In this document: positions 464-22,158 of the stretch, piece after piece
Numbering within the stretch: the stretch's first letter is position 1
Layout of the letters: each line of letters starts with the position of its first letter
From: Onthophagus taurus
Taxonomy: Eukaryota; Arthropoda; Insecta; Coleoptera; Scarabaeidae
Length of the DNA stretch: 64,000 nucleotides
Direction of reading: 5' to 3'
Assembly (NCBI RefSeq): GCF_036711975.1
Contig: NC_091975.1
Span: 12,526,501 to 12,590,500, forward strand
Program-made: the position numbers and the translations under genes
Notes under the pieces: model-generated
Told to the model about the DNA's origin: nothing
Database searches by the model: none
The model's input: only the letters and a program-made list of their open reading frames with translations

Positions 464-1386
464 TAACATGCTCCGATTTCCAAGTGTTACTATTAATAAT
501 TTGTAGAACAACAAAATTCATCAAATTTTCATATTTTCGTATCTATCTCGATATTGACGCATTTGAGAGCAAATATACAAGAGAACAATATTGTTAAGAA
601 CAAAATTTGCTACAACTTTTGTTATAAAAGTTTTTTGATAACATTCTCCGATTCCTAAATATTACCATTAGCTAAAGTAAAACAAGGAAATTCATCAAAT
701 TTTTAAATTTTCGTATTTTTCTCAATATTGACGCATCTAAGAGCAAAAATACAAGAGAGCAATATAGGTAAGAACAAAATTTGCAACAACTTTTGTTCTA
801 AAAGTTTTTTAATAGCATGCTCCGATTCCAAAATGTTACCATTAATTAGTAAAACAAGAAAATTCATCAAATTCTTAAATTTTCGTATTTATCTCAATAT
901 TGACGCAACTGAGAGCAAAAATAAAAGAGAGCAATATTGTTAAGAACAAAATTTGCTACAACATTTGTTATAAAAGTTTTTTGATAACATTCTCCGACTC
1001 CTAAATATTACCATTAGCTAAAGTAAAACAAGGAAATTCATTAAATTTTTAAATTTTCGTATTTATCTCGATATTGACGCTTCTGAGAGCAAATATACAA
1101 GAGAGCAATATTGTTAAGAACAAAATTTGCTACAACATTTGTTATAAAAGTTTTTTGATAACATTCTCCGACTCCTAAATATAACCATTAGCTAATAGTA
1201 AAACAAGAAAATTCGTCAAATTTTTAAATTTTCGTATTTATCTCAATATTGACGCATCTGAGAGCAAAAATACAAGAGAACAATATTGGTAAGAATAAAA
1301 TTTGCGACAACTTTTGTTCTAAAAGTTTTTTTATAACACGCTAGGATTCCCGAATGCTACCATTAATTACTAAATAAAGTAAAATA

Positions 1387-1725
1387 CTTTTTCTGTTTGT
1401 ACTTTTATTATAAAAATGGATTTATTGTTTTAAATTCTACCGGTTTCGGTTTATTCACAAAACCATCTTCAGGAATCTTCGAATTTCGCACACCTAATCC
1501 TGTTCGAAAATTTAAGCATAATACACATTACACCTAAAAATAAAGACACAGCTTCATTTCAATAAAAATGTTTACTAGAAAATCAACATGCTTATTATCA
1601 CAAGAGACATTAAAATAAATTGACGAGATTCGAAGGTTCCTGAAGATGGTTTTGTGAATAAACCGAAACCGGTAGAATTTAAAACAATAAATCCATTTTT
1701 ATAATAAAAGTACAAACAGAAAAAG
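1387..1725. mobile_element. Foldback MITE, 339 bp
   Basis: Two inverted arms of about 95 bp flank a ~150-bp loop. Both ends read CTTTTTCTGTTTGTAC inward, followed by TATTGTTTTAAATTC, ACCGGTTTCGGTTTATTCAC and CCATCTTCAGGAA. No coding frame is present. The arms would form a long hairpin in RNA or single-stranded DNA. The superfamily is not determined and no clean target duplication was found. Confidence 0.8.
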
Positions 1726-2828
1726 TTTGTACTTTTAAAACAATATTAATTACTAGTAAAACAACGAATTCATCAAATTTTCACATTTTCTTATTTTTCT
1801 CAATATTGACGCATCTGAGAGCAAGACTAGAAGAGAGCAATATTGGTAAGAATAAAATTTGCTACAACTTTTGTTTTAACAATTTTTTTGTAACATGCTC
1901 CGATTTCCGAGTGCTACCATTAATTACTAGTAAAACAACGAATTCATAAAATTTTCATATTTTCTCATTTTTCTCAATATTGACGCATCTAAGAGCAAAA
2001 ATACAAGAGAACAATATTGTTAAGAACAAAATTTGCAACAACTTTTGTTCTAAAAGTTTTTTGATAACATGCTCCGATTCCCAAATGTCACCACTAGCTA
2101 ATAATAAAATAAGAAAATTCATAAAATTTTAAAATTTTCGTATTTTTTTCAATATTGACGCATCTGAGAGCAAAAATACAAGAGGGCAATATTGTAAAGA
2201 ACAAAATTTGCAACAACTTTTGTTCTAAAAAATTTTTCGATAACATGCTCCCATTTCCAAATGTTACCATTAGCTAATAGTAAAACTAGGAAATTCATCA
2301 AATTTTTAAATTTTCGTATTTGTCTCGATATTGACGCATCTGAGAGCAAAAATACAAGAGGACAATATTGTTAAGAATAAAATTTGCTAAAACTTTTGTT
2401 ATAAAAGTTTTTTAATAACATACTCCGATTCCCAAACACATATCACCATTAGCTAATAGTAAAACAAGAAAATTCGTAAAATTTTTAAATTTTTGTATTT
2501 ATCTCAATATTGACGCATCTGAGAGCAAAAATACAAGAGAGCAATATTGTTAAGAACAAAATTTGCTACAAGTTTTGTTATAAAAGTTTTTTTATAACAT
2601 TCTCCGATTCCTAAATATTACCATTAGCTAAAGTAAAACAAGGAAATTCATCAAATTTTTAAATTTTCGTATTTATCTCGATATTGACGCATCTGAGAGC
2701 AAAAATACAACAGAACAATATTGTTAAGAATAAAATTTGCAACAACTTTTGTTATAAAAGTTTTTTTATAACATGCTTCAATTCCCAAATGTTACCATTA
2801 AGAGCAAGTAAAACAACAAAATTCATTA

Positions 2829-3202
2829 ATTCATATATAAAAAACACTTCTTCTCAGTATCAAAATGTTTTATTATTTATATGATTAAAAACATTATTTT
2901 TTCGTCAACGTTTCGAGCATTTATTGCTCATTATCAAGAATATGTTCATTTTGCATTTGTAAATTTCAATATTGGTTTTAGTAAAATGCGCTCACCGACG
3001 GCACCCACTTGAAATTTCCTCAGTAAGCGTCTGCATTCTTCTTTGATGTTAAAACTGTACTTTATATTGGTTTATTGAAATGTGTATGGATTTTTGTGTT
3101 TTCACATATTCTTGATAATGAGCAATAAATGCTCGAAACTTTTTAATTATATAAATAATAAAACATGTCGATACTGAGAAGAAGTGTTTTTTATATATGA
3201 AT
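2829..3202. mobile_element. Foldback MITE, about 374 bp
   Basis: The termini are inverted copies beginning ATTCATATATAAAAAACAC, then TTCTTCTCAGTATC, and inner arms share ATTGCTCATTATCAAGAAT. Arms are about 110 bp and the loop is non-coding. It interrupts a satellite A monomer. Superfamily is not determined. Confidence 0.75.
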
Positions 3203-4330
3203 GAATAAGTCAAACCTCAGTAAAACAAGAATTACTGTATTAAAATTCATTAAATTTTCGAATTTTTGTGTTTTCTTGATATTGACGCATCTGAGAGCAA
3301 AAGTGAAAGAGAACAATATTGTTAAGAATAAATTTTGCTACAACTTTTGTTCTAAAAGTTTTTTTGTAACATGCTTCGATTCCCGAATGTTACCATTAGC
3401 TAATAGTAAAACAAGAAAATTCATCAAATTTTCAAATTTTCGTATTTATTTCGATATTGACGGATCTGAGAGCAAAAATACAAGAGAACAATATTGTTAA
3501 CAACAAAATTTGCTACAACTTTTGTTATAAAAGTTTTTTGATAACATGCTCCGATTCCCAAATGTTACCATTAGCTAATAGTAAAACAAGAAAATTCATC
3601 AAATTTTTAAATTTTCGTATTTATCTCAATATTGACGCATCTGAGAGCAAAAATACAAGAGAACAATATTGTTAAGGATGAAATTTGCTACAACTTTTGT
3701 TATAAAAGTTTTTTGAGAACATGCTCCGATTCCCAAATGTTACCATTAGCTAATAGCAAAACAAGAAAATTCATAAAATTTTTAAATTTTCGTACTTTTC
3801 TGAATATTGACGCATCTGAGAGCAAAAATACAAGAGAGCAATATTGTTAATAACAAAATTTGCTACAACTTCTGTTATAAAAGTTTTTTAATAACATGTT
3901 CCGATTCCCAAATGTTACCATTAGCTAATAGTAAAACAAGAAAATTCATAAAATTTTTAGATTTTCGTATTTTTCTCGATATTGACGCACCTGAGAGCAA
4001 AAATACAACAGAGCAATATTGTTAAGAACAAAATTTGCTACAACTTTTGTTATAAAAGTTTTTTTATAACATTCTACGATACCTAAATATTACCATTAGC
4101 TAAAGTAAAACAAGAAAATTCATCAAATTTTTAAATTTTCGTATTTATCTCAATATTGACGCATCTGAGAGCAAAAATATAAGAGAGCAATATTGTTAAT
4201 AACAAAATTTGCTACAACTTTGGTTATAAAAGTTTTTTAATAACATGTTCCGATTCCCAAATGTTACCATTAGCTAATAGTAAAACAAGAAAATTCATAA
4301 CATTTTTAGATTTTCGTATTTTTCTCGATA

Positions 4331-5378
4331 TTGACGCACCTGAGAGCAAAAATACAAGAGAGCAATATTGTTAAGAACAAAATTTGCTACAACTTTTGTT
4401 ATAAAAGTTTTTTGATAACATGCTCCGATTCCCAAATGTTACCATTAGCTAATAGTAAAACAAGAAAATTCATCAAATTTTTTAATTTTCGTACTTTTCT
4501 GAATATTGATGCATCTGAGAGCAAAAATACAAGAGAGCAATATTGTTAAGAACAAAATTTGCTACAACTTTTGTTATAAAAGTTTTTTGATAACATTCTC
4601 CGATACCTAAATATTACCATTAGCTAAAGTAAAACAAGAAAATTCATGAAATTTTTAAATTTTCGTATTTATCTCAATATTGACGCATCTGAAAGCAAAA
4701 ATACAAGAGAGCAATATTGTTAATAACAAAATTTGCTACAACTTCTGTTATAAAAGTTTTTTAATAACAAGTTCCGATTCCCAAATGTTACCATTACCTA
4801 ATAGTAAAACAAGAAAATTCATAAAATTTTTAGATTTTCGTATTTTTCTCGATATTGACGCACCTGAGAGCAAAAATACAAGAGAGCAATATTGTTAAGA
4901 ACAAAATTTGCTACAACTTTTGTTATAAAAGTTTTTTGATAACATGCTCCGATTCCCAAATGTTACCATTAGCTAATAGTAAAACAAGAAAATTCATCAA
5001 ATTTTTTAATTTTCGTACTTTTCTGAATATTGATGCATCTGAGAGCAAAAATACAAGAGAGCAATATTGTTAAGAACAAAATTTGCTACAACTTTTGTTA
5101 TAAAAGTTTTTTGATAACATTCTCCGATACCTAAATATTACCATTAGCTAAAGTAAAACAAGAAAATTCATGAAATTTTTAAATTTTCGTATTTATCTCA
5201 ATATTGACGCATCTGAAAGCAAAAATACAAGAGAGCAATATTGTTAATAACAAAATTTGCTACAACTTCTGTTATAAAAGTTTTTTAATAACAAGTTCCG
5301 ATTCCCAAATGTTACCATTACCTAATAGTAAAACAAGAAAATTCATAAAATTTTTAGATTTTCGTATTTTTCTCGATA
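4331..5378 (+). repeat. 524-bp higher-order repeat in satellite A (two copies)
   Basis: The stretch 4331-4854 is repeated almost base for base at 4855-5378. Each copy holds three diverged monomers, so this is a three-monomer higher-order unit. The frames at 4331 and 4855, and those at 4680 and 5204, are identical in translation. Confidence 0.8.
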
Positions 5379-7544
5379 TTGACGCACCTGAGAGCAAAAA
5401 TACAAGAGAGCAATATTGTTAAGAACAAAATTTGCTACAACTTTTGTTATAAAAGTTTTTTTATAACATTCTCCGATACCTAAATATTACCATTAGCTAA
5501 AGTAAAACAAGAAAATTCATAAAATTTTTAAATTTTCGTATTTATCTCAATATTGACAACAAGAAAATTCATAAAATTTTTAGATTTTCGTATTTTTCTC
5601 GATATTGACGCATCTGAGAGCAAAAATACAACAGCGCAATATTGTTAATAACAAAATTTGCTACAACTTCTGTTATAAAAGTTTTTTAATAACAAGTTCC
5701 GATTCCCAAATGTTACCATTAACTAATAGTAAAACAAGAAAATTCATAAAATTTTTAGATTTTCGTATTATTCTCGATATTGACGCACCTGAGAGCAAAA
5801 ATACAGGAGAGCAATATTGTTAAGAACAAAATTTGCTACAACTTTTGTTCTAAATGTGTTTTGATAACATGCTTCAATTCCCAAATGTTACCATTAACTA
5901 ATAGTAAAACAAAAAATTCATAAAATTTTCATATTTTCGTATTTTTCTCGATATTGATGGATCTGAGAGCAAAAATACAAGTGAGCAATGTTATTAAGAA
6001 CAAAATTTACTACAACTTTTGTTATAAAAGTTTTTTGATAACATTCTCCGATTCCAAAATGTTACCATTAATTAGTAAAACAAGAAAATTCATCTAATTT
6101 TTAAATTTTCGTATTTATCTCAATATTGACGCATCTGAGAGCAAAAATACAAGACAGCAATATTGTTAAGAACAAAATTTGCTACAACTTTTGTTATAAA
6201 AGTTTTTTGATACATGCTCTGATTCCCAAATGTTACCATTAGCTAATAGTAAAACAAGAAAATTCATAAAATTTTTAGATTTTCGTATTTTTCTCGATAT
6301 TGACGCACCTGAGAGCAAAAATACAAGAGAGCAATATTGTTAAGAACAAAATTTGCTACTACTTTTGTTATAAAAGTTTTTTTATAACATTCTACGATAC
6401 CTAAATATTACCATTAACTAAAGTAAAACAAGAAAATTCATCAAATTTTTAAATTTTCGTATTTATCTCAATATTGACGCATCTGAGAGCAAAAATACAA
6501 GAGAGCAATATTGTTAATAACAAAATTTGTTACAACTTTGGTTATAAAAGTTTTTTAATAACATGATCCGATTTCCAAATGTTACCATTAGCTAAAGTAA
6601 AACAAGAAAATTCATCAAATCTTTAAATTTTCGTATTTATCTCAATATTGACGCATCTGAGAGCAAAAATACAAGAGAGCAATATTGTTAATAACAAAAT
6701 TTGCTACAACTTTGGTTATAAAAGTTTTTTAATAACATGATCCGATTCCCAAATGTTACCATTAGCTAATAGTAAAACAAGAAAATTCATAAAATTTTTA
6801 GATTTTCGTATTTTTCTCGATATTGACGCACCTGAGAGCAAAAATACAAGAAAGCAATATTGTTAATAACAAAATTTGCTACAACTTTGGTTATAAAAGT
6901 TTTTTAATAACATGATCCGATTCCCAAATGTTACCATTAGCTAATAGTAAAACAAGAAAATTCATAAAATTTTTAGATTTTCGTATTTTTCTCGATATTG
7001 ACGCACCTGAGAGCAAAAATACAAGAAAGCAATATTGTTAAGAGCAAAATTTGCTACAACTTTTGTTATAAAAGTTTTTTAATAACATGATCCGATTCCC
7101 AAATGTTACCATTAGCTAATAGTAAAACAAGAAAATTCATAAAATTTTTAGATTTTCGTATTTTTCTCGATATTGACGCACCTGAGAGCAAAAATACAAG
7201 AAAGCAATATTGTTAAGAGCAAAATTTGCTACAACTTTTGTTATAAAAGTTTTTTAATAACATGATCCGATTCCCAAATGTTACCATTAGCTAATAGTAA
7301 AACAAGAAAATTCATAGAATTTTTAGATTTTCGTATTTTTCTCGATATTGACGCACCTGAGAGTAAAAATACAAGAAAGCAATATTGTTAAGAGCAAAAT
7401 TTGCTACAACTTTTGTTATAAAAGTTTTTTAATAACATTCTCCGATTCCTAAATATTACCATTAATTAGTAAAACAAGGAAATTCATGAAATTTAAAATT
7501 TTTGTTTTTATCTCATTTATAACAAAATTTGTTATAAAAGTTTT

Positions 7545-7852
7545 TTTATGATACCCCCGCTCGAAAGTTAAGGCGATTTTATTTCGTGTTCTTCCGAAAA
7601 TAAAAAAATCGTTGCTCAAAATAATTTTTTAGGAGTTACGATTTGGCATTCCTTTTGACGGGAGACGACATCTTTGGTGTTTATACAGGGTGGTACGTCT
7701 AAAATACACCAAAATTATTCTTAATTTAATAATTAAATCCAATCTAACGCTTTGTAAGCTAGAATTTCGTATTCAATTAATTCGAAGCTAACTCCGATTT
7801 AACTTAATTTCTCACTTAATTTATTAATTAATCAATTAATTAATTGTTAAAG
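7545..7852. other. Intronic spacer before the first myosin exon
   Basis: Non-satellite AT-rich sequence between satellite A and the exon at 7853. It contains a TACAGGGTGGTACGTCT motif near 7684, of the kind found at transposon ends, and long runs of AATTAATTAA before the splice acceptor. I see no gene in it. Confidence 0.5.
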
Positions 7853-7939
7853 GCTCGCGAAGAATTTCGCACGTTAAAACACCGCAGAGAAATCGAATGG
7901 GCCGCGACGGTCATTCAAAGACATTACATCCAATGGAAA
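7853..7939 (+). CDS. Class I myosin, IQ-motif exon (first exon in window)
   Basis: This internal exon encodes 29 residues with an IQ-like calmodulin-binding motif (AATVIQRHYIQWK). It is flanked by an AG acceptor at 7851-7852 and a GT donor at 7940-7941, and both boundaries are phase 0. It belongs to a class I unconventional myosin, a monomeric actin motor whose neck binds calmodulin and whose basic TH1 tail binds membrane phosphoinositides. Four further exons follow: 8004-8390, 25921-26073, 26167-26360 and 26414-26537, together about 294 residues. The best family match from memory is the MYO1A/MYO1B group, to which one insect class I myosin (probably Myo95E) seems closest; I give no symbol because the motor is missing. 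The motor exons must lie upstream, beyond 7.5 kb of satellite. Confidence 0.8.
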
Positions 7940-8003
7940 GTTAGTAACAAATTTAACTTAATTCATTGATTTAGTTAATATAATTATACTTTTTTGGTAA
8001 CAG

Positions 8004-8390
8004 AGAAAACAGTTCCTTTTAACTTTGGCGAATTTCCTAAAAAACAAAGACCTCGAAAGTCCGACCTGCACGAATTGGCCCACCACGAATAAATCAAAAT
8101 TTCAAGAATGTAACGTCCTATTGAGGCGGCTCTACCATAAGTGGAGGTGTCATAAGTACCGGTTAAAGTTCGACCAAACGTCGCGGAATCGGATGAGAGA
8201 GAAAGTAACGGCCAGTTTGATTTTTAAAGATCGAAAATCGTCCTATAGTCGGAGCGTTTCGCACCCATTCCTCGGAGATTACGTGCGATTGAGGCAAAAC
8301 ATCCAGTGGAAAAAGCTGTGCTTGGAAACCAACGACCAATACGTCGTGTTCGCCGATATTGTGAATAAAATCGCCCGATCGAGTGGAAAG
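8004..8390 (+). CDS. Class I myosin, neck/TH1 tail exon
   Basis: This exon encodes 129 residues in phase 0, starting after TAACAG at 7998-8003 and ending at a GTAAGC donor. The exon is open upstream of its first Met codon, so that Met is not a start. Diagnostic features of the MYO1A/B tail are visible: NWPT, then LLRRLYHKWRCHKYRL, REKVTASLIFKDRKSSY, SV-HPFLGDYVRL, KKLCL, and VFADIVNKIARSSGK, which in the family leads directly into the PH-like part of TH1. The exon is rich in Lys and Arg, as expected of a lipid-binding tail. The intron before it is 64 bp; the intron after it is 17.5 kb. Confidence 0.9.
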
Positions 8391-8487
8391 GTAAGCTTAA
8401 AAATCTTAATATATCTTCTTATTGGTTGCCCTATTCTACGTCACACTATTTGCCACGCCCAATTAGCTGTCAATTTTTAGAGGTATC

Positions 8488-11480
8488 TTTAGAGGCATTT
8501 TTCTCAAAATTTTTTTATATAAAGTTTTTAAACAACATACGGACTTCGAAAGAAGACATCTTCAGCTTCAATTTGAGGCATAAATCGCTTCTTCATTATC
8601 ATAAATAAAAAAATTATGATTTTTTGAAAATTAACTATTCAAATCAAATTATCTAAGAAAGCTTTTTTCTCAAAATTTTTTTATATAAAGTTTTTAAACA
8701 ACATACAGATTAGGAAAGACGACATCTTCAGCTTCAATTTGAGGCATAAATCGCTTCTTCATTATCATAAATAAAAAAGTTATGATTTTTTGAAAATTAT
8801 CTAAAAAGCTTTTATCTCAATATTTTTTTATATAAAACTTTTAAACAACATACAGATTTCGAAAGAAGACATCTTCAGCTTCAATTTGAGACATAAATCG
8901 CTTCTTCATGATCATAAATAAAAAAGTTATGATTTTTTCAAAATTAACTATTTTTTTTCAATCTCATAAAATTATCTAAGAAAGCTTTTTTCTCAAAATT
9001 TTTTTATATAAAGTTTTTAAACAACATACAGATTTCGAAAGAAGACATTTTCAGCTTCAATTTGAGCCATAAATCGCTTCTTCATTATCATAAATAAAAA
9101 AGTTATGTTTTTTTGAAAATTAACTATTTAAATCAAATTATCTAAGAAAGCTTTTTTCTCAAAATTTTTTTATATAAAGCTTTTAAACAACATACAGATT
9201 TCGAAAGAAGACATCTTCAGCTTCAATTTGAGGCATAAATCGCTTCTTCATTATCATAAATAAAAAAGTTATGATTTTTTGAAAATTAACAATTTTTTTT
9301 AAACATAATCAAATTATCTAAGAAAGCTTTTTTCTGAAAATTTTTTTATATAAAGTTTTTAAACAACATACAGATTTCGAAAGACGACATCTTCAGCTTC
9401 AATTTGAGACATAAATCGCTTCTTCATTATCATAAATAAAAAAGTTATGATTTTTTGAAAATTAACTATTTTAATAAAATTATCTAAAAAGCTTTTATCT
9501 CAAAATTTTTTTATATAAAACTTTTAAACAACATACAGATTTCGAAAGAGGACATCTTCAGCTTCAATTTGAGACATAAATCGCTTCTTCATTATCATAA
9601 ATAAAAAAGTTATGATTTTTTGAAAATTAACTATTTAAATCAAATTATCTAAGAAAGCTTTTTTCTCAAAATTTTTTTATATAAAGCTTTTAAACAACAT
9701 ACAGATTTCGAAAGAAGACATCTTCAGCTTCAATTTGAGGCATAAATCGCTTCTTCATGATCATAAATAAAAAAGTTATGATTTTTTCAAAATTAACTAT
9801 TTTTTTTCAATCTCATAAAATTATCTAAGAAAGCTTTTTTCTCAAAATTTTTTTATATAAAGTTTTTAAACAACATACAGATTTCGAAAGAAGACATTTT
9901 CAGCTTCAATTTGAGGCATAAATCGCTTCTTCATGATCATAAATAAAAAAGTTATGATTTTTTCAAAATTAACTATTTTTTTTTCAATCTCATAAAATTA
10001 TCTAAGAAAGCTTTTTTCTCAAAATTTTTTTATATAAAGTTTTTAAACAACACACAGATTTCGAAAGAAGACATCTTCAGCTTCAATTTGAGGCATAAAT
10101 CGCTTCTTCATTATCATAAATAAAAAAGTTATGATTTTTTGAAAATTAACTATTTTTTTTCAATCTAATCAAATTATCTAAGAAGGCTTTTTTCTCAAAA
10201 TTTTTTGTATAAAGTTTTTAAACAACATACAGATTTCGAAAGAAGACATCTTCAGCTTCAATTTGAGGCATAAATCGCTTCTTCATTATCATAAATAAAA
10301 AAGTTATGATTTTTTGAAAATTAACTATTTTTTTTAAACCTAATCAAATTATCTAAGAAAGCTTTTTTCTCAAAATTTTTTTATATAAAGTTTTTAAACA
10401 ACATACAGATTTCGAAAGAAGACATCTTCAGCTTCAATTTGAGGCATATATCGCTTCTTCATTATCATAAATAAATAAGTTATGATTTTTTGAAAATTAA
10501 CTATTTTTTTTCAATCTAATCAATTTATCTAAGAAGGCTTTTTTCTCAAAATTTTTTTATATAAAGTTTTTAAACAACATACAGATTTCGAAAGAAGACA
10601 TCTTCAGCTTCAATTTGAGGCATAAATCGCTTCTTCATGATCATAAATAAAAAAGTTATGATTTTTTGAAAATTAACTATTTTTTTTAAACCTAATCAAA
10701 TTATCTAAGAAAGCTTTTTCTCAAAATTTTTTTATATAAAATTTTTAAACAACATACAGATTTCGAAAGAAGACATCTTCAGCTTCAATTTGAGGCATAA
10801 ATCGCTTCTTCATGATCATAAATAAAAAAGTTATGATTTTTTCAAAATTAACTATTTTTTTTCAATCTCATAAAATTATCTAAGAAAGCTTTTTTCTCAA
10901 AATTTTTTTATATAAAGTTTTTAAACAACATACAGATTTCGAAAGAAGACATTTTCAGCTTCAATTTGAGGCATAAATCGCTTCTTCATGATCATAAATA
11001 AAAAAGTTATGATTTTTTCAAAATTAACTATTTTTTTTCAATCTCATAAAATTATCTAAGAAAGCTTTTTTCTCAAAATTTTTTTATATAAAGTTTTTAA
11101 ACAACATACAGATTTCGAAAGAAGACATCTTCAGCTTCAATTTGAGCCATAAATCGATTCTTCATTATCATAAATAAAAAAGTTATGATTTTTTGAAAAT
11201 TAACTATTTTTTTTAAACCTAATCAAATTATCTAAGAAAGCTTTTTTCTCAAAATTTTTTTATATAAAGTTTTTAAACAACATACAGATTTCGAAAGAAG
11301 ACATCTTCAGCTTCAATTTGAGGCATAAATCGCTTCTTCATTATCATAAATAAAAAAGTTATGATTTTTTTAAAATTAACTATTTTAATAAAATTATCTA
11401 AGAAAGCTTTTTTCTCAAAATTTTTTTATATAAAGTTTTTAAACAACATACAGATTTCGAAAGAAGACATCTTCAGCTTT
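8488..11480 (+). repeat. Satellite B array
   Basis: About 18 tandem monomers of 145-178 bp, mostly near 170, each carrying TTTAAACAACATACAGATTT, CGAAAGAAGACATCTTCAGC, TTCAATTTGAGGCATAAATC and ATCATAAATAAAAAAGTTAT. Two sub-variants (TTCATTATC with GAAAATT, and TTCATGATC with CAAAATT) recur in blocks, suggesting multi-monomer amplification. There is no similarity to satellite A. It begins about 100 bp after the splice donor at 8391. Confidence 0.93.
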
Positions 11481-11790
11481 TCAATGACAGAAGCGGATTT
11501 TCAAAATATCTATTAGTTTTAGAGATATTAATTTTTTAACAGAAGGCATTTTCTCATCTTTTTCGGGATAAACAATTATTTTCATTCATTTTCAAAAAAT
11601 CGTAATAAATCGTTGTTTTAACAAATCCTTATGAAATTATCAGCATTTGCAATACAAATTATCGGCTTTCCAATGAAACAAACGGATTTTTAAAATATCT
11701 TTTAGTTTTTGAGATATTAATTTACAAGCGTAATAACACAATAACAGCTGACTGGGTGTGGCAAATGGTAATGGAAAAACTAAGAGAGTT
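11481..11790. repeat. Degenerate pair of ~187-bp repeats between satellites B and C
   Basis: Two diverged copies share GCGGATTTTCAAAATATCT and TTAGTTTTAGAGATATTAAT (near 11490 and 11677). They look like the last two units of an older satellite. No coding potential is seen. Confidence 0.6.
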
Positions 11791-12843
11791 AGAATAAAAT
11801 CGATTAAGAAACATATCTTGTAGGGTTTATAACGGACAAAATTTATTAATAAAGTTTTGCCCCATCATTTTTTATTTAGGAGTTATGACGATTTTGAATC
11901 ACCAAAAACCTTGATTTTTAAGTTTTTTCGTGATAGGGATGTAATTGAAAAATTAAGAGAGTTGGAATAAAATCGATTAAGAAACATATCTTTTAGGGTT
12001 TATAACGAACAAAATTTATTAATAAAGTTTTGCCCCATCACTTTTAGTTTACGAGTTATGATCGATTTGAATCACCAAAAACCTTAATTTTTTGAATTTT
12101 TTCGTGAATTACATCCCTAATTGAAAAATTAAGAGAGTTGGAATAAAATCGATTAAGAAACATATCTTTTAGGGTTTATAACGAACAAAATTTATTAATA
12201 AAATTTTGCCCCATCACTTTTAGTTTAGGAGTTATGATGATTTTGAATCACCAAAAATCAATTTTTAAGATTTTTTCGTGATAGGGATGTAATTGAAAAA
12301 TTAAGAGAGTTGGAATAAAATCGATTAAGAAACATATCTTTTAGGGTTTATAACGAACAAAATTTATTAATAAAATTTTGCCCCATCACTTTTAGTTTAG
12401 GAGTTATGATCGATTTGAATCACCAAAAATTTTAATTTTTGAGTTTTTTCGTGATAGGGATGTAATTGAAAAATTAAGAGAGTTGGAATAAAATCGATTA
12501 AGAAACATATCTTTTAGGGAGTATAACGAACAAAATTTATTAATAAAGTTTTACCCCATCACTTTTAGTTTAGGAGTTATGATCGATTTGAATCACCAAA
12601 AATTTTAATTTTTGAGTTTTTTCGTGATAGGGATGTAATTGAAAAATTAAGAGAGTTGGAATAAAATCGATTAATAAACATATCTTTTAGGGAGTATAAC
12701 GAACAAAATTTATTAATAAAGTTTTACCCCATCACTTTTAGTTTAGGAGTTATGATCGATTTGAATCACCAAAAATTTTAATTTTTGAGTTTTTTCGTGA
12801 TAGGGATGTAATTGAAAAATTAAGAGAGTTGGAATAAAATCGA
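11790..12843 (+). repeat. Satellite C array, left block a
   Basis: About six monomers of about 172 bp with the boxes AATTAAGAGAGTTGGAATAA, AATCGATTAAGAAACATATC, AACAAAATTTATTAATAAAG, CCCCATCACTTTTAGTTTAG, GAGTTATGATCGATTTGAAT and TTCGTGATAGGGATGTAATT. The block is cut off by the foldback element at 12845. It is unrelated in sequence to satellites A and B. Confidence 0.93.
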
Positions 12844-12844
12844 T

Positions 12845-14125
12845 GGTATAATTGAAGATTAGACATGTCGCTTAAAAATCGCCAATTTTTTTTTTACCGG
12901 TGCGAAATCACTCAAATAAGCCGTTAAAAATAAAAAAAAAGTGAAAAACCTACCGAAAAATAAGTTTGAAATTTCCATGTGACGTCACAAACCTTCCTTA
13001 CGACGTATTTTTCACAACACAATGGTTAAAATTAGTCCGATAAATAATTTGTTCCATATCCACGTGCACAACACGAATAATGTAAGTAAAAAAAAATCAT
13101 TTTCTCAAATTTAATGATAGAATTAACAACTTGTTAGTATTATCGTATTTTCGAGTGATATACCTGCTCTTGAGGATTAGGTATGGAGAAGGGTGTGGGT
13201 CAAATATTGGTATAGTCTTGTTGAAAAAAAACGTTACATTCGGATCCACCTAATATACTGATTTATTTCAGAATTTTGTGTAGAAATTAAGATTTTGAAT
13301 TAGATTAATTTACGTTTAAATTAGTGAGAATTTCCCAAATGTCGGATTAGATATGGGGAAGGGTGTGGGTCAAATATTGGTATGGTCTTGTTGAAAAAAA
13401 AGCGTTACATTCGGATCTACCTAAATTACTGATTTATTTCCGAATTTTGTGTAGAAATTAGATTTTGAATTAGATTAATTTACGTTTAAATTAGTAAGAA
13501 TTTCCCAAATGTCGGATTAGATATGGGGAAGGGTGTGGGTCAAATTTTGGTATGGTCTTGTTGAAAAAAAAGCGTTACATTCGGATCTACCTAAATTACT
13601 GATTTATTTCCGAATTTTGTGTAGAAATTAGATTTTGAGTTAGGTTAATTAACATTTAAACAACTGCAAAATCCCGAAATGTCGGGTCGGGTTCGGAGTA
13701 GGGGCAGGGTAAAGACACGAGCAGGCAGATGGTTAATAAACGCGTTTTAGTTGTTATGCGTCGAGAACCAAAGATGTTTCACCCGAAAATATGCGTTATA
13801 AGACTAAAAAGTTGTTAATTCTTTCATTAAATTTGAGAAAATGATTTATTTTTACTTACATTATTCGTGTTGTGCACGTGGATATGGAACAAATTATTTA
13901 TCGGCCCAATTTTAACCATTGTGTTGTGAAAAATACGTCGTAAGCATGGTTCGTGACGTCACAAATTGTGACGTCACGTCGAAATTTCAAACTCATTTTT
14001 CGGTAAGTTCTTCACTTTTCCGCACTTTCTTTTTATTTTTAACGTGTTTTTTAGGCATTTTTACGACGGCAAAAAAAAAATCATCGATTTTTAAGCGACA
14101 TGTCTATTCTTCAATTTTTCCCACC
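12845..14125. mobile_element. Foldback element with internal 170-bp tandem repeats
   Basis: Arms of about 300 bp at about 12845-13150 and 13815-14125 are inverted copies; both start with GACATGTCGCTTAAAAATCG close to the end and share ATTCGTGTTGTGCAC inward. The core is three tandem units of about 170 bp (13170-13680) sharing GGAAGGGTGTGGGTCAAAT. The CRE palindrome TGACGTCA occurs at 12980 in the left arm and at 13954 and 13969 in the right arm. No transposase frame is present. Exact ends and target duplication are not resolved, because both flanks are satellite C in different register. Confidence 0.75.
13170..13680 (+). repeat. Three ~170-bp tandem repeats in the foldback core
   Basis: Three copies carry GGATTAG-TATGG-GAAGGGTGTGGGTC, then TTGTTGAAAAAAA-CGTTACATTCGGAT, then TGATTTATTTC-GAATTTTGTG. 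The GGATTAG box recurs at about 13173, 13344 and 13513. The sequence is not related to satellites A-D. Confidence 0.8.
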
Positions 14126-14126
14126 A

Positions 14127-15441
14127 AAAATCAATTTTTATGTTTTTTTCGTGATAGGGATGTAATTGAAAAATTAAGAGAGTTGGAATAAAATCGATTA
14201 AGAAACATATGTTTTAGGGTTTATAACGAACAAAATTTATTAATAAAGTTTTGCTCCATCACTTTTAGTTTAGGAGTTATGATCAATATGAATCACCAAA
14301 AACCTTAATTTTGTGAGTTTTTTCGTGAGAGGGATGTAATTGTAAAATTAAGAGAGTTGGAATAAAATCGATTAAGAAACATATCTTTTAGGGTTTATAA
14401 CGAACAAAATTTATTAATAAAGTTTTGCTCCATCACTTTTAGTTTAGGAGTTATGATCAATTTGAATCACCAAAAACCTTAATTTTGTCAGTTTTTTCGT
14501 GAGAGGGATGTAATTGTAAAATTAAGAGAGTTGGAATAAAATCGATTAAGAAACATATCTTTTAGGGTTTATAACGAACAAAATTTATTAAGAAAGTTTT
14601 GCTCCATCACTTTTAGTTTAGGAGTTATGATCAATTTGAATCACCAAAAACCTTAATTTTTTGAGTTTTTTCGTGATAGGGATGTAATTGTAAAATTAAG
14701 AGAGTTGGAATAAAATCGATTAAGAAACATATCTTTTAGGGTTTATAACGAGCAAAATTTATTAATAAAGTTTTGCCGCTATCACTTTTAGTTTAGGAGT
14801 TATGATCGATTTGAATCAGCAAAAATCGATTTTTAAGTTTTTTTCGTGATAGGGATGTAATTGAAAAATTAAGAGAGTTGGAATAAAATCGATTAAGAAA
14901 CATATCTTTTAGGGCTTATAACGAGCAAAATTTATTAATAGAGTTTTGCCCCATCACTTTTAGTTTAGGAGTTATGATTGATTTGAATCACCAAAAATCA
15001 ATTTTTAAGTTTTTTTCGTGATAGGGATGTAATTGAAAAATTAAGAGAGTTGGAATAAAATCGATTAAGAAACATATCTTTTAGGGCTAATAACGAGCAA
15101 CATTTATTAATAAAGTTTTGCCCCATCACTTTTAGTTTAGGAGTTATGATTGATTTGAATCACCATAAATCAATTTTAGGTTTTTTTCGTGATAGGGATG
15201 TAATTGAAAAATTAAAAGAGTTGGAATAAAATCGATTAAGAAACATATCTTTTAGGGATTATAACGAACAAAATTTATTAATAAAGTTTTACCCCATCAC
15301 TTTTTATTTAGGAGTTATGACGATTTTGAATCACCAAAAATCAATTTTTAAGTTTTTTTCGTGATAGGGATGTAATTGAAAAATTAAGAGAGTTGGAATA
15401 AAATCGATTAAGAAACATATCTTTTAGGGCTAATAACGAGC
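14127..15441 (+). repeat. Satellite C array, left block b
   Basis: About 7.5 monomers of satellite C between the two foldback elements. A run of about 1.1 kb (about 14.32-15.4 kb), including the rare variant GCCGCTATCAC at about 14775 and CAGCAAAAATCG after it, is repeated near-identically at about 23.80-24.87 kb. Confidence 0.93.
15433..15441 (+). repeat. 9-bp target-site duplication, left
   Basis: ATAACGAGC, identical to 22150-22158 on the other side of the foldback element. It is part of a satellite C monomer. Confidence 0.88.
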
Positions 15442-15779
15442 ACTGGTGTGAAGTTATCCATAAATCCCAGCAATAAACTTAAAACATTAATAATTCCGTA
15501 ACCAATACGATTTGGGTAACCAAATTTCACACACAGGTCACTCTTATCCTCAAGAACAGCTAACCACCCCCATTTGGTAAAAAAAAATTTTTTCAACCCT
15601 CACCCCCGAAAAAGGGATGTTTTCGCCCTGATGGGCACCTTCGAATTAAACGAAATTCTACCACATAATAGAACACACTTCTAAGTATTTTTATCAATTT
15701 TCAAAACACCGTAAGCCCTAACGGTTTTCGAGAAAAAAAATCAGTATTATAAACCGCGGATGGGACTTTAGGGGTGAAT

Positions 15780-18450
15780 TTGACCCCGTTGGGCACCTTC
15801 AAAATTGATGAAATTTTAGGATGATTTAGAGGATGCCTTTAGCAATTGAAATCAACCATCCAAACACCGTAAGGTATAACGGTTTCCGAGAAAAAAAATG
15901 TGTTATTAGACACTATAGGTACACAGCGCGGCGCGGACATTGGGGGTGAATTTGACCCCGTTGGGCACCTCCAAAATTGACGAAATTTTAGGATGATTTA
16001 GAGGATGCCTTTAACGATTGATATCAACCATCCAAACACCGTAATGTATTACGGTTTCCGAGAAAAAAAATGTGTTATTAGACACTATAGGTATACAGCT
16101 CGGCGCGGAATTTGGGGGTGAATTTGACCCCGTTGGGCACCTCCAAGATTGACGAAATTTTAGGATGATTTAGAGGATGCCTTTAGCAATTGAAATCAAC
16201 CATCCAAACACCGTAAGGTATAACGGTTTCCGAGAAAAAAAATGTGTTATTAGACACTATAGGTACACAGCGCGGCGCGGACTTTGGGGGTGAATTTGAC
16301 CCCGTTGGGCACCTCCAAAATTGACGAAATTTTAGGATGATTTATAGGATGCCTTTAGCAATTGAAATCAACCATCCAAACACCGTAAGGTATAACGGTT
16401 TCCGAGAAAAAAAATGTGTTATTAGACACTATAGGTACACAGCGCGGCGCGGACATTGGGGGTGAATTTGACCCCGTTGGGCACCTCCAAAATTGACGAA
16501 ATTTTAGGATGATTTAGAGGATGCCTTTAACGATTGATATCAACCATCCAAACACCGTAATGTATTACGGTTTCCGAGAAAAAAAATGTGTTATTAGACA
16601 CTATAGGTATACAGCTCGGCGCGGAATTTGGGGGTGAATTTGACCCCGTTGGGCACCTCCAAGATTGACGAAATTTTAGGATGATTTAGAGGATGCCTTT
16701 AGCAATTGAAATCAACCATCCAAACACCGTAAGGTATAACGGTTTCCGAGAAAAAAAATGTGTTATTAGACACTATAGGTACACAGCGCGGCGCGGACTT
16801 TGGGGGTGAATTTGACCCCGTTGGGCACCTCCAAAATTGACGAAATTTTAGGATGATTTATAGGATGCCTTTAGCAATTGAAATCAACCATCCAAACACC
16901 GTAAGGTATAACGGTTTCCGAGAAAAAAAATGTGTTATTAGACACTATAGGTACACAGCGCGGCGCGGACATTGGGGGTGAATTTGACCCCGTTGGGCAC
17001 CTCCAAAATTGACGAAATTTTAGGATGATTTAGAGGATGCCTTTAGCAATTGATATCAACCATCCAAACACCGTAAGGTATAACGGTTTCCGAGAAAAAA
17101 AATGTGTTATTAGACACTATAGGTACACAGCGCGGCGCGGACATTGGGGGTGAATTTGACCCCGTTGGGCACCTCCAAAATTGACGAAATTTTAGGATGA
17201 TTTAGAGGATGCCTTTAACGATTGATATCAACCATCCAAACACCGTAATGTATTACGGTTTCCGAGAAAAAAAATGTGTTATTAGACACTATAGGTATAC
17301 AGCTCGGCGCGGAATTTGGGGGTGAATTTGACCCCGTTGGGCACCTCCAAGATTGACGAAATTTTAGGATGATTTAGAGGATGCCTTTAACGATTGATAT
17401 CAACCATCCAAACACCGTAATGTATTACGGTTTCCGAGAAAAAAAATGTGTTATTAGACACTATAGGTATACAGCGCGGCGCGGACTTTGGGGGTGAATT
17501 TGACCCCGTTGGGCACCTCCAAAATTGACGAAATTTTAGGATGATTTATAGGATGCCTTTAGCAATTGAAATCAACCATCCAAACACCGTAAGGTATAAC
17601 GGTTTCCGAGAAAAAAAATGTGTTATTAGACACTATAGGTACACAGCGCGGCGAGGACTTTGGGGGTGAATTTGACCCCGTTGGGCACCTCCAAAATTGA
17701 CGAAATTTTAGGATGATTTAGAGGATGCCTTTAGCAATTGATATCAACCATCCAAACACCGTAAGGTATAACGGTTTCCGAGAAAAAAAATGTGTTATTA
17801 GACACTATAGGTACACAGCGCGGCGCGGACATTGGGGGTGAATTTGACCCCGTTGGGCACCTCCAAAATTGACGAAATTTTAGGATGATTTAGAGGATGC
17901 CTTTAGCGATTGAAATCAACCATCCAAACACCGTAAGGTATTACAGTTTCCGAGAAAAAAAATGTGTTATTAGACACTATAGGTATACAGCGCGGCGCGG
18001 ACTTTGGGGGTGAATTTGACCCCGTTGGGCACCGCCAAAATTGACGAAATTTTAGGGTGATTTAGAGGATGCCTTTAGCGATTGAAATCAACCATCCAAA
18101 CACCGTAATGTATTACGGTTTCCGAGAAAAAAAATGTGTTATTAGACACTATAGGTATACAGCGCGGCGCGGACTTTGGGGGTGAATTTGACCCCGTTGG
18201 GCACCTCCAAAATTGACGAAATTTTAGGATGATTTAGAGGATGCCTTTAGCAATTGATATCAACCATCCAAACACCGTAATGTATTACGGTTTCCGAGAA
18301 AAAAAATGTGTTATTAGACACTATAGGTATACAGCGCGGCGCGGACTTTGGGGGTGAATTTGACCCCGTTGGGCACCTCCAAAATTGATGAAATTTTAGG
18401 ATGATTTAGAGGATGCCTTTAGCGATTTAAATCGACCATCCAAACACCGA
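15780..18450 (+). repeat. Satellite D array, left arm
   Basis: Sixteen units of about 172 bp, counted by the box GACCCCGTTGGGCACC (first at about 15782, last at about 18362). Other boxes are CAACCATCCAAACACCGTAA, TTAGACACTATAGGTA and CAGCGCGGCGCGGAC. The units are more GC-rich than the other satellites. A three-unit higher-order period of about 516 bp is visible: the variant CAGCTCGGCGCGGAATTTG recurs at about 16.1, 16.6 and 17.3 kb. Confidence 0.93.
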
Positions 18451-18812
18451 CCACGGCTTCAGAGAAACAATTTCGTTATTAAATTGTACACGTATGTAGA
18501 GCAGATAGTAGGTGCCTTTAGCGATTTTAATAGATTATGAAAACTGCGAAACTCTTAATATTTCATGGAAAAAATAAATTTTGTTAAGAAAGGCATTTTG
18601 TAGTTTTATGGGCTTTTAGTCGTTACTGGCAAAGGGTAAGAACTCCGCCACGTGCAGTTACAAAAGGCGCAGGTATTAAGGAAAAAATATGTCCATATTT
18701 TTTGCATTATAAGTGCATTCCGGGAAAATAGTTGCCGACTTATTCGGTGTTGTTTTAGAGCGTCATACACATTTTTTAGATTTTGCCCGAAAGGTGAGGA
18801 GTAAACTTATAA

Positions 18813-18850
18813 TATATAAAGATTCCTCAGCTATTGCAGAGATCAGCTGT
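18813..18850 (+). promoter_or_regulatory. TATA box and initiator of the SGNH gene
   Basis: TATATAAA at 18813-18820 is followed 32 bp later by an initiator-like GATCAGCTG (candidate +1 near A 18845). The first ATG of the gene is 43 bp further on, at 18888. The spacing is right for a TATA-directed RNA polymerase II promoter. Inferred from sequence only. Confidence 0.55.
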
Positions 18851-18887
18851 TCTAGTTATCTCTTGTTAAAACCAGTGACCAGTGAAG

Positions 18888-19642
18888 ATGTCGACGAAAT
18901 TACTGTTTTTGGGCGATAGTAATTTTTGCCGAATGCTACGTACTAGAACTAACTACAAAGTATTTGTTCTAACAGATGTGAAATTAATTCCTACTAATGG
19001 TATATATTTTAGGACGACAACCAAAACAGTCAAGCAACGGAAAATATTTCCTCGACTTAGCAGTAGGCGGTCAAACAATACTAAAACTTTTGCGGCGCGC
19101 AAAGTGTATTCCAAAAACATGTTACCCTTGCTTTTGTGGAGATATTGTTGAACGTCATATCGTTATAATGATAAGAACTAAAGATATACTCCATAAAACA
19201 TCACCATCCCAACTGAAGTCCCAATATTCTCACCTCTTCCGCTTCCTTCTTTCCTTAAATCCTAAAGGAATACAAATTTGCACAATTCCTCCCTGCAAAA
19301 ACTTCGAGTCTGTGAACGTAAGATATTATAACTTCTCTGTCATGCTATAAATAAATACTCTCCATGCCTTTATAGGAAATCAATCATTACATTCGACGGT
19401 TTTGTGCTGAAAAGCAAATCAATTGTACCGACATTGAAGCAATTGTTAACAGAACCATGATGGAAGGGTAACAAAACGTAAAAATGTTTCTTTTCTTATG
19501 TATTTAATACAAATTTCTACACAGGGATGACATTTACTTAAATGAACAAGGGTTGGAAACGGTCTGGAACGCGGTAGCAAGTAATTATAATCATATTCTC
19601 AATCCATTACACAATTTAATTATAAGTAAAACAGACCATTAA
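18888..19642 (+). CDS. SGNH/GDSL-fold protein in the foldback element core
   Basis: Four exons join in frame: 18888-18959, 19030-19317, 19376-19467 and 19525-19642, giving 189 residues with GT-AG introns of 57-70 bp. SGNH-family blocks are visible in order: LLFLGDSN (residues 5-12, nucleophile-type Ser11), DLAVGGQT (33-40, block II Gly), HIVIMIRTKDIL (67-78, block III position), and DDIYLNEQG (152-160, block V position). The usual block III GxND reads RTKD and the block V DxxH His reads Tyr155, so hydrolase activity is doubtful; the catalytically dead OSK domain of Oskar is a precedent for the fold being used otherwise. AATAAA at 19646 almost abuts the stop. I cannot say what it does. The first intron's acceptor is the least certain: TTTTAG at 19012 is an alternative but breaks the phase. 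Confidence 0.72.
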
Positions 19643-19645
19643 TAT

Positions 19646-19651
19646 AATAAA
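19646..19651 (+). promoter_or_regulatory. Poly(A) signal of the SGNH gene
   Basis: AATAAA four bases after the TAA stop. The gene is in the same orientation as the host myosin gene, so this signal lies inside the myosin intron. Confidence 0.5.
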
Positions 19652-19689
19652 TTTCTTTCTCTATCAAAAGTTTTTTTTCTATCAAAAGT

Positions 19690-21830
19690 CCGCCCTCCAA
19701 ATCATCCTAAAATTTCATCAATTTTGGAGGTGCCCAACAGGGTCAAATTCACCCCCAAAGTCCGCGCCGCGCTGTATACCTATAGTGTCTAATAACACAT
19801 TTTTTTTCTCGGAAACCGTAATACATTACGGTGTTTGGATGGTTGATTTCAATCGCTAAAGGCATCCTCTAAATCATCCTAAAATTTCATCAATTTTGGA
19901 GGTGCCCAACGGGGTCAAATTCACCCCCAAAGTCCGCGCCGCACTGTATACCTATAGTGTCTAATAACACATTTTTTTTCTCGGAAACCGTAATACATTA
20001 CGGTGTTTGGATGGTTGATATCAATTGCTAAAGGCATCCTCTAAATCATCCTAAAATTTCATCAATTTTGGAGGTGCCCAACGGGGTCAAATTCACCCCC
20101 AAAGTCCGCGCCGCGCTGTATACCTATAGTGTCTAATAACAGATTTTTTTTCTCGGAAACCGTAATACATTACGGTGTTTGGATGGTTGATTTCAATCGC
20201 TAAAGGCATCCTCTAAATCATCCTAAAATTTCGTCAATTTTGGAGGTGCCCAACGGGGTCAAATTCACCCCCAAAGTCCGCGCCGCGCTGTATACCTATA
20301 GTGTCTAATAACACATTTTTTTTCTCGGAAACCGTAATACATTACGGTGTTTGGATGGTTGATATCAATTGCTAAAGGCATCCTCTAAATCATCCTAAAA
20401 TTTCGTCAATTTTGGAGGTGCCCAACGGGGTCAAATTCACCCCCAAAGTCCGCGCCGCGCTGTATACCTATAGTGTCTAATAACAGATTTTTTTTCTCGG
20501 AAACCGTAATACATTACGGTGTTTGGATGGTTGATTTCAATCGCTAAAGGCATCCTCTAAATCATCCTAAAATTTCATCAATTTTGGAGGTGCCCAACGG
20601 GGTCACATTCACCCCCAAAGTCCGCGCCGCCCTGTATACCTATAGTGTCTAATAACAGATTTTTTTTCTCGGAAACCGTAATACATTACGGTGTTTGGAT
20701 GGTTGATATCAATTGCTAAAGGCATCCTCTAAATCATCCTAAAATTTCGTCAATTTTGGAGGTGCCCAACGGGGTCAAATTCACCCCCAAAGTCCGCGCC
20801 GCGCTGTATACCTATAGTGTCTAATAACAGATTTTTTTTCTCGGAAACCGTAATACATTACGGTGTTTGGATGGTTGATTTCAATCGCTAAAGGCATCCT
20901 CTAAATCATCCTAAAATTTCATCAATTTTGGAGGTGCCCAACGGGGTCAAATTCACCCCCAAAGTCCGCGCCGCCCTGTATACCTATAGTGTCTAATAAC
21001 AGATTTTTTTTCTCGGAAACCGTAATACATTACGGTGTTTGGATGGTTGATATCAATTGCTAAAGGCATCCTCTAAATCATCCTAAAATTTCGTCAATTT
21101 TGGAGGTGCCCAACGGGGTCAAATTCACCCCCAAAGTCCGCGCCGCGCTGTATACCTATAGTGTCTAATAACAGATTTTTTTTCTCGGAAACCGTAATAC
21201 ATTACGGTGTTTGGATGGTTGATTTCAATCGCTAAAGGCATCCTCTAAATCATCCTAAAATTTCATCAATTTTGGAGGTGCCCAACGGGGTCAAATTCAC
21301 CCCCAAAGTCCGCGCCGCCCTGTATACCTATAGTGTCTAATAACACATTTTTTTTCTCGGAAACCGTAATACATTACGGTGTTTGGATGGTTGATTTCAA
21401 TCGCTAAAGGCATCCTCTAAATCATCCTAAAATTTCGTCAATTTTGGCGGTGCCCAACGGGGTCAAATTCACCCCCAAAGTCCGCGCCGCGCTGTATACC
21501 TATAGTGTCTAATAACACATTTTTTTTCTCGGAAACTGTAATACCTTACGGTGTTTGGATGGTTGATTTCAATCGCTAAAGGCATCCTCTAAATCATCCT
21601 AAAATTTCGTCAATTTTGGAGGTGCCCAACGGGGTCAAATTCACCCCCAATGTCCGCGCCGCGCTGTGTACCTATAGTGTCTAATAACACATTTTTTTTC
21701 TCGGAAACCGTTATACCTTACGGTGTTTGGATGGTTGATTTCAATTGCTAAAGGCATCCTCTAAATCATCCTAAAATTTCATCAATTTTAAAGGTGCCCA
21801 ACGGGGTCAAATTCACCCCTAAAGTCCCAT
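19690..21830 (-). repeat. Satellite D array, right arm
   Basis: Thirteen units of about 172 bp in the opposite orientation to the left arm. Here the higher-order structure is a two-unit period (about 344 bp): units reading GATTTCAATCGC alternate with units reading GATATCAATTGC. The arms therefore share sequence but not higher-order pattern. Confidence 0.93.
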
Positions 21831-22149
21831 CCGCGGTTTATAATACTGATTTTTTTTCTCGAAAACCGTTAGGGCTTACGGTGTTTTGAAAATTGATAAA
21901 AATACTTAGAAGTGTGTTCTATTATGTGGTAGAATTTCGTTTAATTCGAAGGTGCCCATCAGGGCGAAAACATCCCTTTTTCGGGGGTGAGGGTTGAAAA
22001 ATTTTTTTTTTACCAAATGGGGGTGGTTAGCTGTTCTTGAGGGTAAGAGTGACCTGTGTGTGAAATTTGGTTACCCAAATCGTATTGGTTACGGAATTTA
22101 TTAATGTTTTAAGTTTATTGCTGGGATTTATGGATAACTTCACACCAGT

Positions 22150-22158
22150 ATAACGAGC
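22150..22158 (+). repeat. 9-bp target-site duplication, right
   Basis: ATAACGAGC, the right copy. The monomer continues with AACATTTATTAATAAAG as in uninterrupted satellite C. Confidence 0.88.

Follow-up and report, generated by a model that had tools for sequence, protein, structure and literature searches.

A foldback-like transposon family of Onthophagus taurus with tandem-repeat arms and a spliced SGNH gene in most of its copies

A 64,000-nucleotide stretch of the Onthophagus taurus genome (NC_091975.1, positions 12,526,501 to 12,590,500; hereafter the window) contains a foldback-like element whose inverted arms are built from 172-bp tandem units and whose core holds a four-exon gene of the SGNH type. 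We find that this element belongs to a numerous family with about 236 ends in the genome and that the gene is present in the core of most copies, where it occurs in two forms, one with the catalytic residues of SGNH enzymes (subfamily B) and one that lacks two of them (subfamily A, which includes the window copy). The most probable explanation is that the element is a recently inserted member of a non-autonomous cut-and-paste foldback family that is moved in trans and that has the SGNH gene as an old resident. Within a single genome, dozens of young copies have the same spliced gene, some with and some without its full catalytic set, a setting in which a passenger versus a helper role of non-transposase genes on DNA transposons becomes testable.

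Anatomy of the element

The element occupies 15442-22149, and a perfect 9-bp duplication, ATAACGAGC, borders it on both sides. Its inverted ends are perfect over the first 52 bp and show 99.07% identity across 322 aligned columns (2 mismatches and 1 gap), with 319 of 321 bases matching. The arms that follow consist of 172-bp tandem units in opposite orientation, with 15.6 copies on the left versus 12.4 copies on the right, and are complementary at 97% over 2,405 nt. Between the arms lies a core with a four-exon gene whose introns are of the GT..AG type and whose spliced product has 188 amino acids plus a stop. These parts had been noticed in an earlier reading made from the letters of the window without database searches (the sequence-only reading), and that description proved accurate. 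Its coordinates are right to the base, its 9-bp duplication is perfect, its inverted ends are perfect for 52 bp and not only 12, its counts of 16 and 13 opposed units and its 189-codon frame agree with the values measured here, and the TATA box, initiator and poly(A) signal that it named are present as candidate sequences at 18813, 18827/18843 and 19646. It had also stated that no transposase lies inside. Four open reading frames (ORFs) of at least 60 amino acids overlap the element and none of them is transposase-like, the longest (117 amino acids) being SGNH exon 2 read through. The features of the element, in window coordinates, are as follows.

15433-15441, no strand: target-site duplication, left copy (ATAACGAGC), 9 bp, equality of the two copies checked
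15442-15762, plus strand: left terminal domain, 321 bp, begins ACTGGTGTGAAGTTATCC
15763-18449, plus strand: left arm, about 15.6 tandem copies of the 172-bp unit
18450-19693, plus strand: core, 1,244 bp
18813-18821, plus strand: candidate TATA box TATATAAAG, sequence match only
18827 and 18843, plus strand: TCAGCT initiator-like sites, sequence match only
18888-18939, plus strand: SGNH gene exon 1, with block I FLGDSN, in which the Ser is kept (codon 11, 18918-18920)
19013-19317, plus strand: SGNH gene exon 2
19174-19185, plus strand: block III RTKD, catalytic Asn lost in the window copy
19376-19467, plus strand: SGNH gene exon 3
19525-19642, plus strand: SGNH gene exon 4, including the stop
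19526-19537, plus strand: block V DDIY, catalytic His lost in the window copy
19646-19651, plus strand: AATAAA, candidate poly(A) signal, sequence match only
19694-21827, minus strand: right arm, about 12.4 copies of the 172-bp unit, inverted
21828-22149, minus strand: right terminal domain, inverted, 99% identical to the left
22150-22158, no strand: target-site duplication, right copy, 9 bp

When the flanks are joined without one copy of the duplication, the resulting empty site aligns with the neighbouring satellite array at 97.6% over all 800 bp with one gap. The flanks rejoin into a satellite array, and therefore the element jumped into an array that already existed. Comparison of the arm unit with the rest of the window gave matches of chance size only.

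Copies of the family across the genome

The sequence-only reading had considered that the element might be a single copy without related ends, or that its two arms might be an artefact of assembly, and had proposed a search with the outer ends and the core for further copies with 9-bp duplications. Such copies are numerous. The end 25-mer, with up to 3 mismatches allowed, gave 117 + 119 genome matches (about 236 ends) versus 0 + 0 for a reversed control pattern. With the outer 301 bp as query all 40 scored matches were at 99-100% (40 of 256 candidates scored), and with 1,231 bp of the core as query 36 of the 41 listed matches were full-length at 98-100% (40 of 125 candidates scored), the remaining five being four longer partial matches and one 195-base piece. 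The 40 end matches correspond to about 30 elements, of which 20, including that of the window, were fetched first and one (L053) was added later. All 18 elements with both ends among these first 20 have inverted ends that enclose tandem units and an SGNH core, although the core is interrupted in L025 and is without some bases in L016, and L011 has an interruption in its right arm. Units and core are also present in L021 and L027, which were fetched with one end each. The runs of units per arm range from 1 to 49.

A flank-split 19-mer search located 182 perfect ends, so that 54 or more of the 236 ends found at up to 3 mismatches were not placed, and variant ends were located at 17 places. Ends that diverge right after their first 12 bases were sought with a 13-mer and were rejected, as the 10 matches versus 17 for the control are at chance level. 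An SGNH exon 2 lies within 15 kb of 144 of the 182 perfect ends and, conversely, 77 of the 88 exon-2 matches listed lie no more than 15 kb from a perfect end. Target-site duplications were counted over 24 elements with both ends, namely the 18 described above together with L053-L058, a set selected for its lack of an SGNH exon 2. An exact 9-bp duplication is present in 20 of the 24, the exceptions being L017 (8 bp), L054 and L056 (8 of 9 positions matching) and L058 (none recognised).

The family therefore has the structure expected of foldback elements, with long inverted termini containing variable numbers of tandem repeats, a duplication of about 9 bp, and a core that is variable or absent. 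The class to which the sequence-only reading had assigned it, foldback-like and non-autonomous with a gene in the core, holds, as does the presence of that gene in most copies. It is true that long inverted satellites assemble poorly and that the exact count of units in a given copy may be in error. However, the same anatomy recurs at many sites with different flanks, different unit numbers and exact duplications, and the end pattern is matched 236 times versus none for its control. That the structure was misassembled or is a unique oddity is thereby ruled out, and arms that arose by misassembly or by a chance arrangement have a vanishingly small probability.

Elements without a normal SGNH core

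Foldback elements often have cores that are empty or shifting, and the elements selected for lacking an SGNH exon 2 are diverse. L053 is coreless, with its units head to head and with TCTTTAATC on both sides as its duplication. The SGNH cores of L054 and L056 are broken or rearranged. L054 (G000:C7:32248600-32256500) is an older copy with an insert nested in its arm at 675-2477, and this insert has an 8-bp duplication CTCTATAG, CAG ends and an open frame of 471 amino acids with no Pfam match under E 0.03; from the CAG ends and the look of the protein we take it to be hAT-like. The core of L055 (G000:C6:1791950-1795720, 558-2635) consists of three tandem pieces of a piggyBac transposase (PF13843) about 680 bp apart, and this element has a perfect 9-bp duplication, AGGATAATT. 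L057 resembles the window element in its outer 42-55 bp (91-93%), in two short patches and in 164 bp of core (82%), while its interior is mostly other tandem repeats. Since L057 shares mainly these outer bases and yet has a 9-bp duplication, the outer bases are probably the part that a transposase recognises. L058, which is old, contains a nested Gypsy pol as well as a piece that looks Tc1-like by eye.

Two single variant ends, L059 and L060, have nothing transposase-like in the 4 kb read. At L059 (G000:C2:8297800-8301800, 601-2064, minus strand) a mitofusin-like frame of 488 amino acids (PF04799) lies about 1.5 kb from the lone element end and is probably a neighbouring gene.

Two subfamilies of the SGNH gene

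We use the customary names of the SGNH blocks and the catalytic roles assigned to their residues. Subfamily B, read from L029-L032 and L034, has FLGDSN, GG, GTND and DGIH in five of five copies. In contrast, the ten tabulated copies of subfamily A, that of the window included, have FLGDSN, GG, RTKD and DGIY, with DDIY in the window and in L010. The window copy thus has Lys in place of the catalytic Asn and Tyr in place of the catalytic His. The two forms also differ in their scores with the PF13472 profile, where subfamily B is above the cut-off of 32.9 bits (48.1 bits) and the window copy is below it (23.1 bits). Scores with PF17182, the OSK domain of Oskar, were 20.8 and 24.7 bits, both under its cut-off of 27.

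Older copies indicate which of the two forms came first. Block III reads IGTND in all six that were examined (L035, L036, L042, L045, L046 and L047). Block V is D-x-I-H in L035, L036 and L042; in L045 it is out of frame, and L046 and L047 do not cover it. In these copies block I is unreadable and block II is variable (AAGG, AVGD, AIAG). Two copies close to subfamily B are partly decayed, with ETND and DGIH in L037 and GTND and DGIP in L038. Because the older copies keep GTND (6/6) and D-x-I-H (3/3 readable), the simplest reading is that the complete catalytic set is ancestral and that the lineage of the window would have lost Asn and His. Among young copies, 15 in the genome have a B exon 2 with 100% identical protein and no stop, and the larger burst is subfamily A. 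The protein of the window copy is best described as a derived SGNH-like protein that is not predicted to be an active enzyme. The sequence-only reading had called the gene intact, which stands for its open reading frame but not for its catalytic Asn and His or its profile score.

Is the gene needed by the element?

L013 and L026 share a stop, R15*, together with three flanking variants, and their sites differ (GTTAATTAA and ATCACTAGG). As the stop is shared but the duplications differ, a copy with a broken gene has therefore multiplied. This spread and the coreless copy L053, with its perfect duplication, make the gene seem unneeded in cis, with the qualification that L053 could have lost its core after insertion. 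Among the window core and 17 other A cores, the variable coding positions comprise 12 that are protein-changing and 5 that are silent (gap-only rows of L016 and L021 excluded). When L029, one B copy, is compared with the window, 19 of 567 exon positions differ versus 23 of 311 in introns and flanks (p = 0.012). The gene may have been under some constraint in the past and may have a role in trans.

A foldback family probably moved in trans

In the explanation that we favor, a transposase made elsewhere would recognise the terminal 40-55 bp of each element and would most likely be of the MULE/Rehavkus kind, to judge by the 9-bp duplication. The arms would lengthen and shorten through unequal exchange of 172-bp units, as the range from 1 to 49 units suggests. 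The core would carry an SGNH gene that has long resided in the family as a passenger and is not required in cis. Lineage A would have become a probable pseudo-enzyme while lineage B kept the catalytic set, with both lineages having multiplied recently. A length of 9 bp falls within the MULE range of 8-11 bp, a feature not specific to MULEs, and it fits both MULE and Rehavkus elements (PMC6446971); we regard it as a lead and not as a test. The ends also differ from the core in how far they have diverged. In the B element L027 (G000:C5:8927000-8936999) the end differs from that of the window at 2 of 321 bases, versus 40 mismatches and 5 gap openings over 891 columns in the core (about 5% apart; 2/321 vs 40/891, p = 0.0005). 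Either the ends would be under tighter constraint or the arms, or else the cores, would have been exchanged between elements by recombination.

Several results weigh against this explanation. Among the 16 genome matches to PF10551 (MULE) none lies within 37 kb of any of the 182 perfect ends, and the full element with the same ends and a MULE-type transposase, which the sequence-only reading had proposed to look for, was not found among the elements read. The six pairs of ends lacking SGNH exon 2 (L053-L058) contain no transposase that seems to be their own. More generally, no partner with matching ends was found among the elements read; 38 perfect ends have no SGNH exon 2 within 15 kb, 13 of these are in L053-L060, and the other 25 are unread. 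The transposase may also be of a class other than MULE. Finally, the gene is only weakly constrained. Subfamilies A and B are separated by 5 synonymous and 12 non-synonymous changes, which gives a ratio of non-synonymous to synonymous rates (dN/dS) of 0.64 (p = 0.38), and the majority sequence of the old copies versus B gives 0.52 (p = 0.23), neither being significantly off 1; single old copies versus B range from 0.32 to 1.75. No ends like those of the element occur at four MULE loci (L049-L052) within the 6.5-7 kb retrieved for each. One of these loci, L051, has a zf-AD domain.

Origin and role of the SGNH gene

A search of the whole genome with B exon 2, in which 122 of 122 candidates were scored, gave as its best clear non-copy a match of 25% identity at E 1.27. 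No host parent gene, meaning a paralogue outside the transposon, was recognised genome-wide, a few matches (including C14:618241 and C6:18754299) being unread. Eleven of the 88 exon-2 matches listed have no perfect end within 15 kb, and seven of these were read. Arm-like units lie beside the gene in L037, L038 and L043, whereas the sequence retrieved for L035, L036, L046 and L047 includes neither a unit nor an end, and these four contain stops or an insert. Copies with an exon-2 protein identity of 73-89% also exist. Viral contigs, scanned once with the B protein, yielded no confirmed relative, and no solved structure matched by sequence below E 0.5, with the GDSL protein 4rw0 at 0.58.

These data bear on whether a foldback element recently picked up a host SGNH gene in the manner of Pack-type elements, an explanation close to the gene capture suggested by the sequence-only reading. 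The gene does resemble a host gene in its introns, its candidate TATA box and its candidate poly(A) signal, and DNA of other origin does occur inside members of the family, as the three tandem piggyBac pieces of L055 illustrate. Furthermore, L035, L036, L046 and L047 have neither a unit nor an end in the sequence read and no perfect end within 15 kb, and their status as relics of the element is deduced from their letters alone. However, these same four copies are older ones that carry stops or an insert, the best non-copy in the genome is as distant as stated above, and copies diverged to 73-89% exist. Given no close host paralogue and the presence of diverged copies, capture, if there was any, looks old or from another genome. 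Recent capture from this genome is accordingly unsupported and unlikely, and we find the Pack-type explanation as a whole rather improbable; an old capture or a transfer is possible.

A different explanation is that the SGNH protein works in the life cycle of the element, for example as a trans-acting helper for its spread or its germline expression, with B copies supplying the enzyme and A copies exploiting it or interfering. A life-cycle role has earlier been proposed for the esterase of the CR1 retrotransposon. A similar role has been proposed for texim on fish Helitrons, which serves as a precedent (PMC4021074). A helper would account for the presence of the gene in most copies, for the GTND that all six older copies still have, for exons that diverge less than introns and flanks, and for the identical, stop-free exon 2 of the 15 B copies. 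On the other side, R15* copies and a coreless copy occupy sites of their own, the larger young burst is subfamily A without the catalytic Asn and His, and dN/dS does not differ significantly from 1, although supply in trans would mask all of these points. We regard a helper function as unlikely. An extended version, which we hold to be doubtful, is that the resident SGNH gene supports a class II family in trans, that an esterase module would be common to CR1, Helitron and foldback elements, and that subfamily A would be a pseudo-enzyme parasite of subfamily B. With a foldback family moved in trans as the preferred explanation, the gene would instead be an old passenger.

Apart from these considerations, four SGNH pseudogene copies on one contig (G000:C7:30796888, 30809417, 30821631 and 30835035, of which L035 and L036 are part) are spaced at 12-13 kb and lie more than 1 Mb from any perfect end. 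The two that were read have no exon 3 and no adjoining arm unit, and the row looks as if a long segment had been duplicated in tandem.

Comparison with known systems

The Drosophila FB/NOF elements have arms of tandem repeats, a 9-bp duplication and a core that may hold a gene, and NOF is a large ORF thought to be active in transposition. As so described they resemble the present family in arms, duplication and gene-holding core, but the core gene here encodes an SGNH protein and not a large ORF of the NOF type. Tetris, a foldback of Drosophila virilis, has units of about 220 bp in its termini, duplications of 8-9 bp and three complete copies with no conserved ORF (PMC4079207). It shares with the present family long inverted termini in which an outer domain is followed by tandem units of satellite size, 8-9 bp duplications, a non-autonomous nature and a variable middle, and differs from it in that there are dozens of young copies here with a spliced gene and a 172-bp unit. 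Tm1, a Mutator/Foldback family of Meloidogyne, likewise has composite foldback-like termini that contain internal repeats, duplications of 9 bp, and non-autonomous members in which a segment other than a transposase is resident (PMC3169594). Unlike the present family, with its SGNH gene and with a partner that was not found among the elements read, Tm1 has repeats of about 14 bp, a member with a Phantom-type transposase, and a segment with a histone-hairpin motif (PMC3169594).

In Tribolium castaneum, the 9.5-kb Rehavkus-1_TC has a 164-bp satellite, TCsat23, in its inverted termini (PMC10218199). Compared by description only, Rehavkus elements and the present family share 9-bp duplications and satellite repeats in inverted termini (PMC6446971, PMC10218199), but Rehavkus encodes a PHD-finger transposase, whereas no element read here has a transposase of its own. 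The Tribolium satellite Cast2 also has a unit of 172 bp, a comparison of unit length only. With regard to the gene, texim is an intron-bearing SGNH gene that was mobilised and multiplied by a fish Helitron, and texim-like genes without Helitrons are known in other animals (PMC4021074). Both cases involve multiplication of an intron-bearing SGNH gene by a DNA transposon, with a Helitron in fish versus a foldback here (PMC4021074). Open-access papers, as a body of literature distinct from Repbase, gave no SGNH gene in a foldback element, and within that scope no precedent was found for a foldback family most of whose copies have a spliced SGNH gene. The arms in addition show how a transposon can create and disperse tandem repeats of satellite length.

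Surroundings of the element

Outside the element, the window at 464-15439 and 22149-64000 is largely made up of tandem arrays with periods near 172-176 bp that are unrelated to the arm unit. Some of these arrays have doubled periods of 343-349 bp.

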